A DNA stretch of 64,000 bases, from positions 248,001 to 312,000 of the forward strand of contig JAHBZB010000003.1 in NCBI GenBank assembly GCA_019635635.1. Reading direction: 5' to 3'. A program made the translations under genes and the position numbers. Positions within the stretch are counted from its first letter, which is position 1, and every line of letters starts with the position of its first letter. This stretch comes from Xanthobacteraceae bacterium. Lineage in GTDB: Bacteria; Pseudomonadota; Alphaproteobacteria; Rhizobiales; Xanthobacteraceae. Below, piece by piece: positions 16,344 to 31,371 of the stretch. The notes below the pieces were generated by a model, which searched no databases, was not told the origin of the DNA, and was given only the letters and a program-made list of their open reading frames with translations.

Positions 16344-16544
16344 ATGGCAAGCGTCGAGTCACGCAACATTGTCGCCGAAGAAGCCCGCCTCGAGGCCATC
16401 GCCCGTGGCGCCGGAGCGGCACTCGCCTGCATGCACGAAACCGCCGAGGATTTGCACCGCGCGCTGGTTAGTGAATATCTCCAGCGCAAGCAGGGGCAGG
16501 GCTTCTGGTCCCGCATGCGCGCGCTCAGCATTTTCTCTCTCTAA
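16344..16544 (+). CDS. Small hypothetical protein
   Basis: 66 residues starting at ATG 16344, 25 bases after the second cyclase. It looks helical and amphipathic in the first half (VAEEARLEAIARGAGAALA) and ends with FWSRMRALSIFSL. I do not recognise a family. Position on the same strand and codon use like its neighbours make it a plausible gene, but overlapping frames on both strands are also open. Confidence 0.4.
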   Translation: MASVESRNIVAEEARLEAIARGAGAALACMHETAEDLHRALVSEYLQRKQGQGFWSRMRALSIFSL

Positions 16545-16566
16545 TTCAACCGAACGATCAGCGGCG

Positions 16567-17226
16567 CTAACGAGGGTTCTGCGAGGAGCCGTGTGATTGC
16601 GCGCCGTCGAAGACCGCGCGCGCGAAGTTCATGAGGTTCTGAATCTCCGACGGCGAGGCTGCGGGTCCCATCTGACCCTGCACCGCCAGCGTTGCGAAGC
16701 CATGCACCAGAGCCCATTCCCGCATGACGGACGGATCCGTGTCCTTGAACATGCCCTCGGGAAAGGCGACGTCGTTGGCCTGCATGTAGGTTTCGATGAA
16801 GACGTCGAACGCAGCGCGGCTCGCAGTCGCGAGACGTTCGTTCGCGTGATCGACGAGGCCCTTCTGGAACATCAGCTGGAACTGTGCGGGATGGGAGAGG
16901 GCGAAGCGGACATAGCCAAGCCCGGTTCCGATCAGCCGTTTCCCGGCAGGCTCTTCGTCACGCGCCTCGCGTTCGGATGCCGTCAAACGCTCGAATCCGA
17001 GTGCCGCGACTTCCGTGAGCAGTCCCCTGGCATCGCCGAAATGATGCGCGGGAGCGGCATGCGACACGCCGGCGCGGCGGGCGCATTCACGTAGCGTAAA
17101 GCCCTCGACCCCGCGCTCGGTGAGAACGGCTTCGGCTGCCTCGACGAGTGCGGCTGCCAGGTCGCCGTGATGATAGGTCTTCTCGCGTGCCGAGCGGCGC
17201 GCCGGCTTCTTTCTTCGTTGTTCCAT
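16567..17226 (-). CDS. TetR/AcrR family transcriptional regulator
   Basis: 219 residues. After a basic N-terminus, the helix-turn-helix domain reads YHHGDLAAALVEAAEAVL, then FTLRECARRAGVSHAAPAHHF, typical of TetR members with a WHG-type C-terminal domain. The rest is a helical ligand-binding region. It is divergent from the ABA4-like operon. Inverted repeats of GTCAAG/CTTGAC type lie in the 89-base gap, so it probably represses that operon and itself. Ligand unknown. Confidence 0.88.
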   Translation of the reverse strand: MEQRRKKPARRSAREKTYHHGDLAAALVEAAEAVLTERGVEGFTLRECARRAGVSHAAPAHHFGDARGLLTEVAALGFERLTASEREARDEEPAGKRLIGTGLGYVRFALSHPAQFQLMFQKGLVDHANERLATASRAAFDVFIETYMQANDVAFPEGMFKDTDPSVMREWALVHGFATLAVQGQMGPAASPSEIQNLMNFARAVFDGAQSHGSSQNPR

Positions 17227-17243
17227 GGGAACACGTTTACACC

Positions 17244-17303
17244 GTCAAGATTTAACTTGACAACAGAAAGATTGACCATAGTTTCCAACTTGTCAACGTC
17301 AAG
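17244..17303 (+). promoter_or_regulatory. Divergent promoter region with two TetR-operator-like repeats
   Basis: A perfect inverted repeat GTCAAG-N6-CTTGAC lies at 17244-17261. A second, looser copy CTTG-N7-CAAG lies at 17289-17303. The first overlaps a possible -35 (TTGACA, 17257-17262) that is 16 bases from TAGTTT (17279-17284), a promoter for the rightward genes. Binding of the adjacent TetR protein at both sites would occlude it. Confidence 0.5.
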
Positions 17304-17315
17304 ATGGAGGAAGAG

Positions 17316-17747
17316 ATGATCCCTATAGCGATATTCGGTCCGGCGAATTGGTTTGCGATGCTTGGCTGGCTGGTGCTGATCGCCGGAATCATCCTGAACC
17401 GGGCGTGGCTGCGCGACAAACTGGCGGGACTCTATTGGCCGCTGGCGCTCTCGGCCGGCTATTGCGTCGCCATCTATCTCGGCTTCGGCCAGAGCGGAGG
17501 CGGTTTCGATAGCTTGCCGGCTGTTCGGCAACTGTTTTCGAACGACTGGGCGTTGCTCGCGGGCTGGGTGCATTACCTCGCATTCGATCTCTTCGTCGGC
17601 GCGTGGATCGCGCGCGATGCCTCGCGCTCCGGCGTGTCGCGCTGGTTCATGATACCCGTATTGCCGCTGACCTTCCTGTTCGGACCCGCCGGCCTCCTGC
17701 TCTTTCAAGGTATCAAAGCCGTGTTCGGGAAAGGAGCGCAGTCATGA
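17316..17747 (+). CDS. ABA4-like (DUF4281) membrane protein
   Basis: 143 residues from ATG 17316, which follows GGAGG by 5 bases; an in-frame ATG lies at 17304. Four membrane helices are visible. The family pattern includes WLVLIAGIILNRAW, NDWALLAGWVHYLAFDLFVG, and IPVLPLTFLFGPAGLLLF. The plant ABA4 protein is needed for neoxanthin synthesis, but bacterial members have no established role. It overlaps the next gene by 4 bases (ATGA), so both are co-translated, likely under the TetR regulator. Confidence 0.78.
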   Translation: MIPIAIFGPANWFAMLGWLVLIAGIILNRAWLRDKLAGLYWPLALSAGYCVAIYLGFGQSGGGFDSLPAVRQLFSNDWALLAGWVHYLAFDLFVGAWIARDASRSGVSRWFMIPVLPLTFLFGPAGLLLFQGIKAVFGKGAQS

Positions 17748-18583
17748 CGGCGCGTAAGACGATGCTCAATTCCGGTTTTGCTGGCAGCGATATTTGGCGG
17801 ACGCTTCATCGCGACGAGCCTGTGCTGCTCTACGCCACGGTTATCCTGGCGGCGATGATGTTCCCGGCGTTTCTTGCCTATCTCGCTGAAACACGGACGT
17901 TCAACGGCATCAATGTCTGGATCAAGCCGATGAAATTCATGTCGTCGGCCGCGATTTTCCTCGCCACGCTCGCGATCTTCATGCCGTATCTCGACCAAGC
18001 GGATCGCGCGCGAAAATCCGTGAATGCGGCGGTCTGGATCATCAGCGTTTTTCTGATCCTCGAGATTCTTTACATTACTTTCCGTGCGTCGCGGGCCGAG
18101 GCGTCGCACTTCAACCGCGAGAACGTGATCGGGATCGTTCTGTATGCGTGGATGGGCATCACCATCCTGATATCGACGGCGCTGGCGGGATGGATCGGCT
18201 GGCTAATCCTGATGGGCAGGGACAAGATTGCTGCCCCCGAACTGCGCTATGCGATCGGCGTCGGTCTTGTGCTCGGCACTGCGCTGGGCAGCCTTACTGC
18301 GATCTATATGAGCACGCAGACCGGTCACTGGGTCGGCGGCGTGCGGAACGACAGCGAGGGCTCCTTCTTCTTCGGTTGGTCGCGCACCGGCGGCGATCTG
18401 CGCGTCGCGCACTTCATCGGCCTGCACGCCATGCAGGGCATTCCGTTGATCGGCTGGTTCGCATCGTTCATCTCGGCAGCCGCGGCGAAACCCGCCGTGA
18501 TTGTATCGGCTGCCTTGTGGGTGCTCGTGACGGCCGCGACCTTCGGACAAGCCATTGCCGCGCGGGCGTTGCTTCCGCTTTAG
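17744..18583 (+). CDS. Polytopic membrane protein of unknown function
   Basis: 279 residues, starting inside the stop of the ABA4-like gene. About seven to eight membrane helices are visible. Polar signatures between them include NGINVWIKPMKFMSSAA, TFRASRAEASHFN, and GDLRVAHFIGLHAMQGIPL. The repeated His in H-F-I-G-L-H and SHF suggests a possible metal or haem site, which is speculative. I do not recognise a named family. It ends 4 bases inside the TonB receptor gene, in the convergent direction. Confidence 0.7.
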   Translation: MTARKTMLNSGFAGSDIWRTLHRDEPVLLYATVILAAMMFPAFLAYLAETRTFNGINVWIKPMKFMSSAAIFLATLAIFMPYLDQADRARKSVNAAVWIISVFLILEILYITFRASRAEASHFNRENVIGIVLYAWMGITILISTALAGWIGWLILMGRDKIAAPELRYAIGVGLVLGTALGSLTAIYMSTQTGHWVGGVRNDSEGSFFFGWSRTGGDLRVAHFIGLHAMQGIPLIGWFASFISAAAAKPAVIVSAALWVLVTAATFGQAIAARALLPL

Positions 18584-26729: not shown

Positions 26730-27368
26730 ATGCGCGATCCGGTCGATACCTACATGAACCTAGTGCCGATGGTGGTCGAGCAGACCAACCGCGGCGAACG
26801 CGCCTATGACATCTTCTCGCGGCTGCTGAAGGAGCGGATCATCTTCATCACCGGTCCGATCGAGGACGGCATGTCGACGCTCGTGGTCGCGCAGTTGCTG
26901 TTCCTCGAAGCGGAAAATCCGAAAAAAGAAATCTCGATGTACATCAACTCGCCCGGCGGCGTGGTGACATCGGGCATGGCGATCTACGATACGATGCAGT
27001 TCATCCGTCCGCCGGTTTCGACGCTCTGCACGGGTCAGGCGGCGTCGATGGGTTCGCTGCTGCTCGCCGCCGGCGAGAAGGGCCAGCGCTTCGCGCTGCC
27101 GAACGCGCGCATCATGGTTCACCAGCCGTCCGGGGGATTCCAGGGGCAGGCGACCGACATCATGCTGCACGCGCAGGAAATCCTGAACCTGAAGAAGCGG
27201 CTCAACGAAATCTACGTGAAGCACACCGGCCAGCCGCTCAAGGTGATCGAAGAGGCGCTCGAGCGTGACAAGTTCCTGACGTCGGAAGCGGCCGCCGAGT
27301 TCGGCCTCGTCGACAAGGTGATCGACAAGCGGCCGACGGACGACATTTCGCTCGCGAAGGCGTCCTAA
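26730..27368 (+). CDS. clpP: ATP-dependent Clp protease proteolytic subunit
   Basis: 212 residues. The catalytic serine is Ser106 in [14 protein letters not shown] and the histidine is His131 in [12 protein letters not shown]; the aspartate lies in the LDRD-type segment near residue 180. The short N-terminus before [20 protein letters not shown] is normal for this processed enzyme. It assembles as two heptameric rings and is fed by ClpX (30103) or ClpA. A TTTAGGAG ribosome binding site precedes the ATG by 7 bases. Confidence 0.97.
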
Positions 27369-27477: not shown

Positions 27478-29247
27478 TTGTCGCATTTTTCCGATCCGAA
27501 GTTCGTGCTGCTGCTGCAAATTCTGGCGGTGGTCGGTCTTCCGCTCGTGCTGTGGCGCTATTTCCGGCTGGGGCGTTTTTTTCCGCTCGCCATCGTCCAG
27601 ATTTTCGCGGGCATCGCGCTCGGACCGTCGATCCTCGGCGCGCTGTGGCCCGGCGCCTATGAGACGCTGTTCGGCCCGAAATATCTCAAGGACGGGCTGG
27701 ATTCGCTTCGCACCGTTACCGACGTGCTGCCTTACACATTGCAGCAGCTATCGGCGCTCTCGCTGCGATCCGGCATCGAAACCATCGCGCAGATCGCCGT
27801 CATCCTGTTCGTGTTTCTCGCCGGATGCGAAGCCGACAAACAGATCCTGAACAACTCCGCGAAGATGGTGCTGCGCATCGGCATTACCGGCGTGTTTTTG
27901 CCGCTTGTGCTCGGCGCGGTCGCCGCGTGGTTTCTCGCCGGGCTGCCGCGCGCGGCGGGCGCGTCGGTCAGTATGCTCTCATACGGACATCTGCTTTATT
28001 CGGTGGCGTTCGGGCTCTGCATGGCCGTGACGGCGCTACCGATCCTCGTGATCGTACTGCGCGAACTTGGCTTCAACCAGAAGCCGATCGGCACCGTCGC
28101 ACTGGCGGTGGGCGGCGTCGACGACGCGCTGTTGTGGGGGTCGCTTGCGATCCTGTTGCCGCTGGCGCCGTCCGCCATGGCGATTGCCGCGGGCGCGACC
28201 GGCGGCAATCCGATGCAATCGGCAATCGACTTCGGCTTTGCGATCGGCGGCGGCGTGGTGGCCGCGGCCGCGATCTATTATCTGCTCGCGCCCTTGCTCG
28301 AGCGGCTGCTGAAAGAGTCCGCGCCCGAGCGCATGCTGATGTCGACCGTCATCATCGGGCTGTTCACGGCTTCGGCGATCACCGAGTTCACCGGGCTGCA
28401 CGCGGTGTTCGGCGCGTTTCTCGTCGGCCTGATGATTCCGGAAAAGCTCAGGCATCTCGCGCAAGACCGTTTCGACGTGCCGGTAAGCCTGCTGCTGCTC
28501 CCGTTCTTCTTTCTTTCGACCGGCTTGAAGACCAGCTTCGCCTTCGGCGACGCGAGTATGTGGACGATTTTCTCCGTCGCGATGGTCGTCTGCATCACCG
28601 GAAAATTCCTCGGCATCTCGATTCCGGCCTATCTCTCCGGCCAGTCGATGCCGTTTTCGATTACGCTCGGCACGCTCATGCAGTGCAAGGGCTTGATGGA
28701 AATCGTGGTCGTGACGCTGCTCTATAGCCGCGGCGTGTTCGGTCCCTCGACCTTTACCGCGCTGGTGCTGGTCGCGCTGGTTTCGACCGCTATCACCGCA
28801 CCGCTATCGAAGCTCGCGCAGTGGTACTTCGGCGAGGCGGCAACGAAAACCCGCGAGCAGGCGAAGGTCGAGGTCAGCGTGCCGGCAGTGCCCGAACTGC
28901 CGCCGAGCGAGCAGGCGGGCACGGTGGTAGCAGAGGGCACGAAGGTGCACGGCGCGACGCTCGAATTCGACAATTCGATCGGCAAGGTGGTCGTCACCAA
29001 TCCCGACGTGGTGATCGGGCGGCACAAGGACGACGGCATTCGCGTCAACGATGTCCGCGTCTCGCGCGGTCACGCGCGTCTCCAGAAGCTCGGCGACAAC
29101 GTCTACGAAATCACGAACCTCACCGCCACGCGCTCGGAGCCCAACCCGATCACGATCAACGGCGAGGAGAAGGACAAGGCGATCCTGAAGGACGGGGACG
29201 CGGTCTCGCTAAACGGCGTGAACTTCAAGTTCCGGAACGCAGCGTGA
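27478..29247 (+). CDS. CPA2 (Kef/CHX-type) cation:proton antiporter fused to a C-terminal FHA domain
   Basis: 589 residues starting at TTG 27478. Residues 1-450 form a 12-13 helix Na+/H+-exchanger fold. CHX/Kef-like signatures are VFLAGCEADKQIL, MAVTALPILVIVLRELG, the acidic pair Asp215-Asp216 in GGVDDALLWG, and GAFLVGLMIPE. A charged linker (about 451-490) leads to an FHA domain (about 490-586). This has GR at 514-515, SRGH at 529-532 and Asn561-Gly562, the residues that bind phosphothreonine. Kef relatives usually carry RCK/TrkA-N domains; here FHA takes that place. The gene lies between clpP and clpX and faces a stand-alone FHA gene 3 bases away. Confidence 0.88.
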   Translation: MSHFSDPKFVLLLQILAVVGLPLVLWRYFRLGRFFPLAIVQIFAGIALGPSILGALWPGAYETLFGPKYLKDGLDSLRTVTDVLPYTLQQLSALSLRSGIETIAQIAVILFVFLAGCEADKQILNNSAKMVLRIGITGVFLPLVLGAVAAWFLAGLPRAAGASVSMLSYGHLLYSVAFGLCMAVTALPILVIVLRELGFNQKPIGTVALAVGGVDDALLWGSLAILLPLAPSAMAIAAGATGGNPMQSAIDFGFAIGGGVVAAAAIYYLLAPLLERLLKESAPERMLMSTVIIGLFTASAITEFTGLHAVFGAFLVGLMIPEKLRHLAQDRFDVPVSLLLLPFFFLSTGLKTSFAFGDASMWTIFSVAMVVCITGKFLGISIPAYLSGQSMPFSITLGTLMQCKGLMEIVVVTLLYSRGVFGPSTFTALVLVALVSTAITAPLSKLAQWYFGEAATKTREQAKVEVSVPAVPELPPSEQAGTVVAEGTKVHGATLEFDNSIGKVVVTNPDVVIGRHKDDGIRVNDVRVSRGHARLQKLGDNVYEITNLTATRSEPNPITINGEEKDKAILKDGDAVSLNGVNFKFRNAA

Positions 29248-29250
29248 GCC

Positions 29251-29661
29251 TCACGCCTGCTCGAGTTTCAGGGTGGTTTCGCCGAGTTTGATGAGATCGC
29301 CGAATTTCACGGCCTGATCGGCGGTGATACGGTTGCCGTTCACCCATAGGCCACCGGGCTTGCCGCCGTCATAGATGCGGACTTCTAGGTTCTTCGCGTC
29401 GTAGGTGATGACCGCGTGCTGCTGGCGCGAGATGGTGTCGTCGCCGAAGTTGACCTGAATCCGCATGTCGTTGCCGCGGCCGATCTGGTTCGTTCCGGAA
29501 TAGACGTTCACCGAGTTCCCCGCACCCGGACCCTCGACCACGGTCAGCTTGCCGATCACCTGGTTCGATTTATCCCGGATGAGTTGGGTGGAGATGTCGT
29601 CCAGTGCCTCGCCGCCGCCGCTGGCTTCTCCCCGGCGGGTGATTTTTGTCTCGTTGGACAT
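29251..29661 (-). CDS. Stand-alone FHA domain protein
   Basis: 136 residues from ATG 29661. About 35 polar residues precede an FHA domain (37-136). Visible motifs are IGRGNDMRI (Gly61-Arg62), ISRQQHAVITYD (Ser78-Arg79, His82) and LWVNGNRI (Asn108-Gly109). The serine-to-histidine spacing is one residue longer than the common SRxH. FHA domains bind phosphothreonine peptides. It converges on the antiporter-FHA gene with only 3 bases between the stops. The pair suggests a shared kinase, but no Ser/Thr kinase is in the window. Confidence 0.85.
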   Translation of the reverse strand: MSNETKITRRGEASGGGEALDDISTQLIRDKSNQVIGKLTVVEGPGAGNSVNVYSGTNQIGRGNDMRIQVNFGDDTISRQQHAVITYDAKNLEVRIYDGGKPGGLWVNGNRITADQAVKFGDLIKLGETTLKLEQA

Positions 29662-30102
29662 GGCTGGAGCGTTTCCCTCGCTACTTGAATGATCGAAAAG
29701 ATACCGCATATAGCCGCCGCAGACCACGCGGAGCCCCATCACAAGCTTCGGCGGAACTTTTCGTTACACCAAAGTCGCAGATTGCCCCTCGCGGGCGGCG
29801 GATCGTCGCAATTCGGGCGTCCGGGGTGCCGCGGCGGCATCTGGTTTGCATCGTCCACAAAGGGCGCGAGTCTGGGGTTCTGGTAGCACTTGGATAGGAT
29901 TTGGGTCGTAAGATCGTCATATCCGAATCGTGGAGGGCGGCCCCGTTAGAGTTAACGCAACCTTGATCATGTGAGCGGTAGCGTGCTTCGCTGTTGCAAT
30001 GCAGGGTGGGGCGAGATTCTCGAACTACCCCGGGCCAAAATCGGTACCGGGACAACGCCTTGAGGGCAGAATGCGCTCAGGACGAAGGAACGGAGAAGTG
30101 GA
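29662..30102 (+). other. 441-base intergenic region between an FHA gene and clpX
   Basis: It must hold the divergent promoters of the FHA gene (leftwards) and clpX (rightwards). I found no convincing -35/-10 pair and no RNA gene. A weak hairpin (CTTGAG...CTCAGG) at 30058-30080 precedes the clpX ribosome binding site (AACGGAGAAG). Short open frames on both strands lack start sites or family resemblance. Confidence 0.4.
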
Positions 30103-31371
30103 ATGAGCAAGGCCGGCGGCGAATCCAAGAGCACTCTGTATTGCTCGTTCTGCGGCAAGAGCCAGCACGAGGTCCGCAAGCTGATTGCCGGACCGACCGT
30201 CTTCATCTGCGACGAGTGTGTCGAACTGTGCATGGACATCATTCGCGAGGAGAACAAATCCTCGCTGGTGAAGTCGCGCGACGGCATCCCGACGCCGAAG
30301 GAAATCCGCAAGGTCCTCGACGACTATGTCATCGGCCAGGACCAGGCGAAGAAGGTGCTCTCGGTCGCGGTTCACAACCACTACAAGCGGTTGAACCACG
30401 CGACCAAGCACAACGACGTCGAACTCGCCAAATCCAACATCCTGCTGATCGGACCCACGGGCTCGGGCAAGACGCTGCTTGCGCAGACGCTGGCCCGCAT
30501 CCTCGACGTGCCGTTCACGATGGCCGACGCAACGACGCTGACCGAAGCCGGTTACGTCGGCGAGGACGTCGAAAACATCATTCTGAAGCTGTTGCAGGCC
30601 GCCGACTACAACGTCGAGCGTGCCCAGCGCGGCATCGTCTATATCGACGAAATCGACAAGATTTCCCGCAAGTCCGACAATCCGTCGATCACGCGCGACG
30701 TGTCGGGCGAGGGCGTGCAGCAGGCGCTCCTGAAGATCATGGAAGGCACCGTTGCCTCCGTGCCTCCGCAGGGCGGCCGCAAGCACCCGCAGCAGGAATT
30801 CCTGCAAGTCGATACCACCAACATCCTCTTCATCTGCGGCGGCGCTTTCGGCGGCCTCGACAAGATCATCTCGTCGCGTGGCATCGGCACGTCGATCGGC
30901 TTCGGCGCGACCGTGCGCTCGCCGGAAGACAGGAAGCCCGGCGAAGTGTTCCGTAATGTCGAGCCGGAAGATCTGCTCAAATACGGGCTGATCCCGGAAT
31001 TCATCGGCCGTCTGCCAGTGCTGGCGACGCTCGGCGATCTCGACGAGGAAGCGCTCAAGAAGATCCTCATGGAGCCGAAGAACGCGCTGGTGAAGCAGTA
31101 TCAGCGGCTGTTCGAGATGGAGAACGTGCACCTCACGATCCACGAGGAAGCGCTCGGTGCGATCGCCCGCAAGGCGATCGAACGCAAGACGGGTGCCCGC
31201 GGCCTGCGCTCGATCATGGAAGGCATCCTGCTCGAGACCATGTTCGATCTGCCGAGCCTCGAGGGCGTCGAAGAGGTCGTGATCTCCCGCGAAGTGGTCG
31301 AGGGCGGGGCGCGTCCGCTCTACACTTACTCGGACCGCAGCGGCGAGCAGTCGGCCCCTGCCAGCGCCTGA
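30103..31371 (+). CDS. clpX: ATP-dependent Clp protease ATP-binding subunit
   Basis: 422 residues. The N-terminal zinc finger has [11 protein letters not shown] and [10 protein letters not shown] (four cysteines). The AAA+ core has Walker A GPTGSGKT and Walker [10 protein letters not shown]. Substrate-gripping pore loop GYVGEDVE follows Walker A. The IGF-type ClpP-docking loop appears as IGFGA. ClpX unfolds tagged proteins and threads them into ClpP; in alphaproteobacteria it degrades cell-cycle regulators. Preceded by AACGGAGAAG ribosome binding site. Confidence 0.98.

Follow-up and report, generated by a model that had tools for sequence, protein, structure and literature searches.

The locus described here lies within a window of 64,000 nucleotides (the whole stretch of DNA that was analyzed) and consists of two convergent genes (Table 1). 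The first codes for a protein in which a Na_H_Exchanger membrane domain (PF00999; 132.2 bits against a cut-off of 26.2, E = 2.9e-38) is joined by a linker to a C-terminal FHA domain (PF00498; 32 bits against a cut-off of 20.7, E = 1.6e-07). The second, labeled FHA2, lies directly downstream and had been overlooked in the original prediction. It codes for a stand-alone FHA protein (Pfam FHA match of 38 bits); its open frame spans 29251-29742, with a conserved ATG at 29661. The AlphaFold model of the full-length fusion protein is of moderate confidence (mean pLDDT 74.9), with values below 50 in the linker at residues 461-489. A sigma-70 promoter scan of the fusion locus gave no result.

Table 1. 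Coordinates of the features at the exchanger-FHA locus (positions within the window).
Feature	Position	Strand	Comment
clpP	26730..27368	+	upstream neighbor in 8/8 genus genomes; context, outside the system
Replaced exchanger-coding segment	27400..28850	+	approximate ends, relative to nearest genome L041; flanks and FHA half unchanged
Exchanger-FHA fusion gene	27478..29247	+	589 aa, TTG start
Na_H_Exchanger (CPA2-type) membrane domain	27553..28803	+	residues 26-442; Pfam and fold
D215-D216	28120..28125	+	D216 invariant in 17 aligned relatives; aligns with NapA 'IDD'
K376	28603..28605	+	invariant in 17 aligned relatives; aligns with NapA 'GK'
Pro/Glu-rich low-confidence linker	28840..29007	+	residues 455-510
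FHA domain	29008..29211	+	residues 511-578; Pfam and FHA-alone model
R515, phosphothreonine-pocket Arg (GRH)	29020..29022	+	invariant in 10/10 fused FHA domains; aligns with GarA GRH
S529, phosphothreonine-pocket Ser (SRGH)	29062..29064	+	invariant in 10/10 fused FHA domains; aligns with GarA SRRH
N556 in RSEPNP, probable pocket-loop Asn counterpart	29143..29145	+	opposite the Asn of GarA LNGT
FHA2, stand-alone FHA protein	29251..29661	-	136 aa from conserved ATG; convergent with fusion
FHA2 Thr25 (DDISTQLIR)	29587..29589	-	second invariant tail Thr, 15/15 FHA2 copies
FHA2 Thr5, candidate phospho-acceptor	29647..29649	-	invariant tail Thr, 15/15 FHA2 copies
clpX	30103..31371	+	downstream neighbor; context, outside the system

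The in-frame joining of exchanger and FHA domain, as originally predicted, is borne out by comparison with related genomes. The fusion and its reading frame recur in all eight sampled genomes of the window's genus, as well as at further loci in the order. In the same eight genomes the fusion and FHA2 adjoin each other, convergently oriented, between clpP and clpX (in L038 clpX is cut by the contig end). For the FHA part, dN/dS is 0.06 between the window and L041 and 0.12 between the window and L090. The fusion is thus conserved under purifying selection in the genus. Both the recurrence and the dN/dS values rule out a spurious or chance FHA match, and likewise a fusion produced by a frame or assembly error.

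To which exchangers is the membrane half related? A profile built from 17 sequences matched NapA best (E = 2.7e-17) and KefC second (E = 9.9e-10), followed by GarA, OdhI and the FHA domain of Rv1747. A fold search with the AlphaFold model gave the same order, NapA (4bwz) ranking first (E = 3.4e-11) and KefC (8bxg) next (E = 1.7e-8); the FHA-containing EmbR appeared at rank 50 for the full-length model. By both profile and fold, therefore, the exchanger is closer to NapA than to KefC. The NCBI model for the CPA2 subfamily, TIGR00932, was the best match in its library, yet its score (103.5 bits) stayed below the cut-off of 238.3, and by this measure we class the exchanger as a CPA2-like outlier. 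CPA2/NapA-like features are nevertheless present, namely the NapA fold, the aligned pair of aspartates and the membrane lysine. The position of D215-D216, like that of the NapA 'IDD', is presumably the ion site; D215, the residue preceding the invariant D216, varies among the 17 aligned relatives. The NapA structures (PDB 4bwz, 5bz2 and 5bz3) are those of the Na+/H+ antiporter of Thermus thermophilus. The matched NapA chains (384-394 residues) lack such a C-terminal control domain, whereas the fusion protein adds a linker and the FHA domain.

Kef-type exchangers of bacteria are gated through RCK domains by nucleotides or glutathione. KefC (PDB 8bxg), a K+/H+ exchanger, has the same exchanger fold and, like the fusion protein, carries a C-terminal cytoplasmic regulatory domain. 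In KefC, however, this domain is an RCK (TrkA_N) domain, whereas Pfam found no RCK/TrkA_N match in the 589-residue fusion protein, nor any ABC domain. The suggestion that an FHA domain occupies the place of the usual RCK domain was therefore correct. The assignment to Kef/CHX-type antiporters, in contrast, calls for correction: the protein is nearer to NapA, falls short of the TIGR00932 cut-off, and its membership in the Kef group is ruled out by the missing RCK/TrkA_N match. Elsewhere in the window's genome a Kef-like protein is encoded that does combine a Na_H_Exchanger domain with TrkA_N, and it serves as a positive control for TrkA_N detection. It follows that the FHA exchanger is an addition to Kef and not a substitute for it.

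The FHA half retains the sequence features of the phosphothreonine-binding type. Among solved FHA domains the closest by sequence are those of GarA, and the model of the FHA part alone, weak as it is (pLDDT 68), matched the folds of OdhI, GarA, Rv0020c, DgcB and Rv1747 FHA-1. All ten fused FHA domains share the G-R-H, S-R-x-H and E-P-N-P motifs without exception. The residues originally listed (GR 514-515, SRGH 529-532 and NG 561-562) are indeed found at these positions, and two of the proposed pocket residues, R515 and S529, are invariant in the ten domains and aligned with GarA. The asparagine calls for a correction. In the alignment the Asn of GarA LNGT stands opposite N556, also present in all ten, and N561 stands opposite a later GarA Asn, in 'VNREP'. 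The pocket Asn is therefore probably N556 instead of N561, an assignment for which the alignment has to cross a 4-residue insertion just before N556.

FHA2 resembles GarA and OdhI in layout, with tail threonines followed by an FHA domain. We compared 15 FHA2 copies, drawn from five genera including the window's own. Apart from Met1, Thr5 and Thr25 (numbered as in the window) are the only invariant residues N-terminal to the FHA region. Within the FHA region, G-R is present in all 15 copies and S-R in 14, His replacing Ser in the remaining one (G1203). GarA/OdhI are phosphorylated in an ETTS motif of the N-terminal tail, and their known targets include the 2-oxoglutarate dehydrogenase complex and no exchanger (PMC8546545). 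Unlike these proteins, FHA2 has two other invariant threonines; the ETTS motif was looked for in the FHA2 tails and none was found. FHA2 also stays below the NCBIfam family cut-offs: the OdhI model was not among its matches, and the FhaB model scored 42.7 bits against a cut-off of 125. A T-x-hydrophobic-hydrophobic-R pattern seen in the tail of the window's FHA2 was dropped, being missing in several copies.

Comparison with L041 (G171), the nearest genome as judged by flanking genes, revealed a discontinuity within the fusion gene. At the protein level the window and L041 are 95.6% identical in trigger factor, 99.5% in ClpP, 99.5% in ClpX and 99.3% in Lon; the FHA half (93.3%) and FHA2 (95.7%) are similarly close, and the exchanger half is only 61.7% identical. 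At the DNA level, the flanks are about 0.9 or more identical; between approximately 27,400 and 28,850 identity is 0.43-0.79, and at the linker it is back near 0.9. The window's exchanger half is instead 88% identical to that of G231 (L090), a genome with more distant flanks (trigger factor 71%). Trees of the two halves disagree accordingly. In the exchanger-half tree a clade of the window and L041 is rejected (AU p = 8e-44); in the FHA-half tree a clade of the window and G231 is rejected too, more weakly (p = 0.016). The identity pattern and the trees together indicate that recombination replaced the exchanger in place, with the 3' end of the new segment close to the boundary between the domains. 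An assembly chimera is made less likely by the absence of any sampled genome identical to the inserted segment. As judged from these comparisons, the replacement spared the FHA half and FHA2. The swap may be read in two ways: the FHA half may be what the locus conserves, or it may lack fine tuning to one exchanger and possibly be a tether.

One further sequence, the public MAG contig L037, might have been taken for an independent second representative of the donor type. It was rejected as such, since its contig may be chimeric: it is 100% identical to G231 from within clpP to the contig end and only about 65% identical upstream. The identity switches at about 4800-5000 of L037, inside clpP, which points to a chimeric contig or a very recent transfer. 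In the half-gene tree and alignment A1, from which it was not removed, L037 duplicates the L090 or the window type.

Fusions were found only in Hyphomicrobiales, as judged from genome samples and from scans of contigs and plasmids. The genome samples were drawn from Pseudomonadota only, the family, order, class and phylum samples overlap, and fusions built on another exchanger subfamily could escape these homology searches. In the family sample, 37 of 248 genomes gave a match at E<=1e-20. Eight of them belong to the window's genus, and each of these has the complete fusion. In the other 29 the match always stops short of the end of the FHA part; the one in G370 extends to residue 530. The order sample yielded matches at E<=1e-35 in 9 of 397 genomes. 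They comprise five fusion loci in four genomes (G000, G061, G1181 and, twice, G1203) and eight loci coding for exchangers without FHA in six genomes (G070, G106, G1145, G1181, G1224 and G1247). Matches were obtained in 3 of 385 genomes of the class sample (E<=1e-28) and in 34 of 398 of the phylum sample; in these two samples no match extends past residue 470 except that of the window's own genome.

The scan of a genome contig collection detected 19 relatives, ten of which have fusions or are of the fusion type. Complete fusions are present in L035, L036, L038-L042 (L042 holding two) and L044, and in L037 the contig end cuts the gene before the FHA part. No FHA match was found in the scanned relatives L043 and L045-L053. 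The plasmid scan matched 24 records, none covering 80% of the query, and no fusion turned up elsewhere. Altogether there are 14 distinct fusion loci: eight in the genus, G061, G1181:C7, G1203:C9, G1203:C30 and two in L042, with L044 and G1203:C9 counted as one. The two fusions of L042 (3907-7608) are of different subtype and diverge from one intergenic region; in the second subtype A-D replaces D-D at the ion-site position.

We then considered the genes surrounding the fusions and their closest relatives (gene positions at high-GC loci rest on tblastn and Pfam). Ten of the 14 distinct loci have FHA2 next to the fusion, namely the eight of the genus, G061 and G1203:C30. The other four (G1203:C9, G1181:C7 and both loci of L042) have no adjoining FHA2, which counts against the explanation favored below. 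Family f28 presents a split form. At five exchanger loci (G070:C11, G106, G1145, G1224 and G1247) a homologue of the window's FHA half is encoded as a protein of its own, followed by FHA2, in all five cases convergently with the exchanger; three other f28 exchanger loci have neither the separate FHA protein nor FHA2. In G070 the separate FHA protein starts with a hydrophobic stretch and is therefore probably membrane-anchored. Being fused in one lineage and neighbors in another is a classic sign of proteins that work together.

Genes for a kinase and a PP2C phosphatase adjoin the fusion at two loci. In G061 one side of the locus consists of the fusion, FHA2, an FHA-zinc-finger-like, an FHA-flavin-like and a small membrane protein gene, and the divergent side of genes for a protein kinase, PP2C, a PrsW-like protease and a vWA protein. 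This kinase is the sole Pkinase match in the G061 genome. The G1203:C30 locus has PP2C and kinase genes on one side and, divergent from them, an FHA2-like gene, the fusion and FHA2. Adjacency to a kinase is not supported as a general rule, however, being seen at two of eight tested fusion loci and at none of five split loci, and this, too, weighs against the favored explanation. No adjoining kinase is present in the window's genome, G171, G231 or G210, or at G1181:C7 and G1203:C9. The window's genome has five Pkinase and five FHA matches; its kinases and PP2C are located away from the fusion, another point against. Genes flanking the G061 fusion are relatives of a separate cluster of FHA, vWA-FHA, FHA2-like and PP2C genes in the window's genome. 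Taken as a whole, the gene context in relatives, where a kinase, PP2C and FHA partners occur, is consistent with control by Ser/Thr phosphorylation.

Several properties of these kinases and clusters may be recorded separately. Hanks kinases usually carry HRD and DFG motifs; the G061 kinase (L124:2911-4359, minus strand) has YQD and DID at these positions, and its small C-terminal domain also occurs in the neighboring PrsW-like protein. The five kinases of the window's genome are related Hanks kinases, two of them with a TPR-like tail, arranged in two clusters (L055:6843-11227; L056:4901-8560 and 16400-18292). The separate FHA, vWA-FHA, FHA2-like and PP2C cluster is located at L054:5872-14161 (G000:C1, about 1.282-1.290 Mb) and also encodes a 679-residue protein that is FHA plus flavoprotein-like; similar clusters are present in G070 (L062) and G061 (L124).

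Among known systems, a precedent is Rv1747 of Mycobacterium tuberculosis. It is an ABC transporter with two FHA domains encoded in an operon with pknF (PMC3908365), and its FHA I binds phosphothreonine (T237) of Rv2623, with a proposed negative control of activity (PMC5549992). Both of its FHA domains, FHA-1 (6ccd) and FHA-2 (6cah), match that of the fusion protein. The likeness is thus that of a membrane transporter carrying FHA domains, with the gene of a Ser/Thr kinase (PknF) in the operon; the difference is that Rv1747 is an ATP-driven ABC exporter, unrelated to cation/proton exchangers. DgcB of Bdellovibrio, an FHA-regulated diguanylate cyclase, likewise has its effector fused to FHA, the effector being a GGDEF enzyme and not a transporter (PMC6733907). 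The titles of its PDB entries 6hc0 and 6hc1 name the FHA domain with its own phosphorylated N-terminal peptide. The original prediction knew of no description of the link between Ser/Thr phosphorylation and ion exchange in this group. For antiporters this agrees with the full-text literature searched (mostly without subscription papers), where no description of an FHA-fused antiporter was found; transporters fused to FHA domains are already known, from Rv1747.

How, then, might the fused protein work? We favor, with a probability of about 0.55, the explanation that Ser/Thr phosphorylation controls the exchanger through its FHA domain, with FHA2 as the probable phospho-partner and a kinase and PP2C as the switch. 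The FHA domain would be the cytoplasmic control module of a CPA2-type cation/proton exchanger, in place of the RCK domain of Kef-type exchangers. A Hanks-type Ser/Thr kinase would phosphorylate a threonine on a partner protein, the phosphothreonine would be bound by the exchanger's FHA domain (R515, S529 and probably N556), binding or release would alter transport, and a PP2C phosphatase would reset the switch. The most likely partner would be FHA2, with its disordered N-terminal tail bearing two invariant threonines ahead of an FHA domain. The sequences show the fusion, the conservation of its pocket and of the pairing with FHA2, the equivalence of fused and split forms, and the kinase and PP2C genes beside the fusion at two loci; we infer the phosphorylation itself, FHA2 as ligand, the effect on transport together with its direction, and the transported ion.

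It might be argued that the FHA domain is a scaffold, holding the exchanger to FHA2 or some other protein for assembly or localization, with no gating involved and possibly without phosphate. FHA domains can also bind partners in a phosphate-independent manner, which counts against phosphorylation control. The FHA half of f28 is a separate protein encoded beside the exchanger gene, making covalent coupling unnecessary, the linker of the fusion is long and flexible, and the exchanger half of the window was swapped while the FHA half stayed, as expected if FHA touches transport only loosely. Nevertheless, the pocket Arg, Ser and Asn are invariant in all ten fused FHA domains, and kinase and PP2C genes adjoin the fusion at two loci. 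We regard a pure scaffold as rather improbable, if a serious competitor. The same two kinase-adjoining loci would also suit an arrangement in which the FHA domain docks the autophosphorylated tail of a kinase that has the exchanger as its substrate and for which FHA2 competes as well. FHA domains of GarA/OdhI do serve as kinase docking sites (PMC8546545). The constant neighbor of the fusion, however, is FHA2 and not a kinase, and we consider such docking unlikely. It seems very improbable that the FHA tail is now functionless and merely carried along. Eight close exchanger loci in the order sample, and all matches outside the order, do without FHA, but a passenger would hardly be expected to show dN/dS of 0.06-0.12, an invariant pocket and retention through the replacement of the exchanger half.

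Returning to control by phosphorylation, the observations may tentatively be extended to a family of phospho-gated exchangers, a proposal that we find possible though doubtful in its full form. In such a family a kinase/PP2C pair would set the state of a GarA-like FHA2, which would dock by its phosphothreonine tail on the exchanger's FHA domain, either fused or present as a membrane-anchored subunit. Cytoplasmic pH or cation balance would thereby be coupled to kinase signaling, and the exchanger domain itself would be swappable between lineages by recombination. If phosphorylation control is true, pH or cation balance in these bacteria would be under the direct control of Ser/Thr kinases, a connection drawn for the ABC transporter Rv1747 and, in the literature searched, for no antiporter, and the split, fused and kinase-linked versions would provide a compact set of loci for rebuilding writer, eraser and reader.
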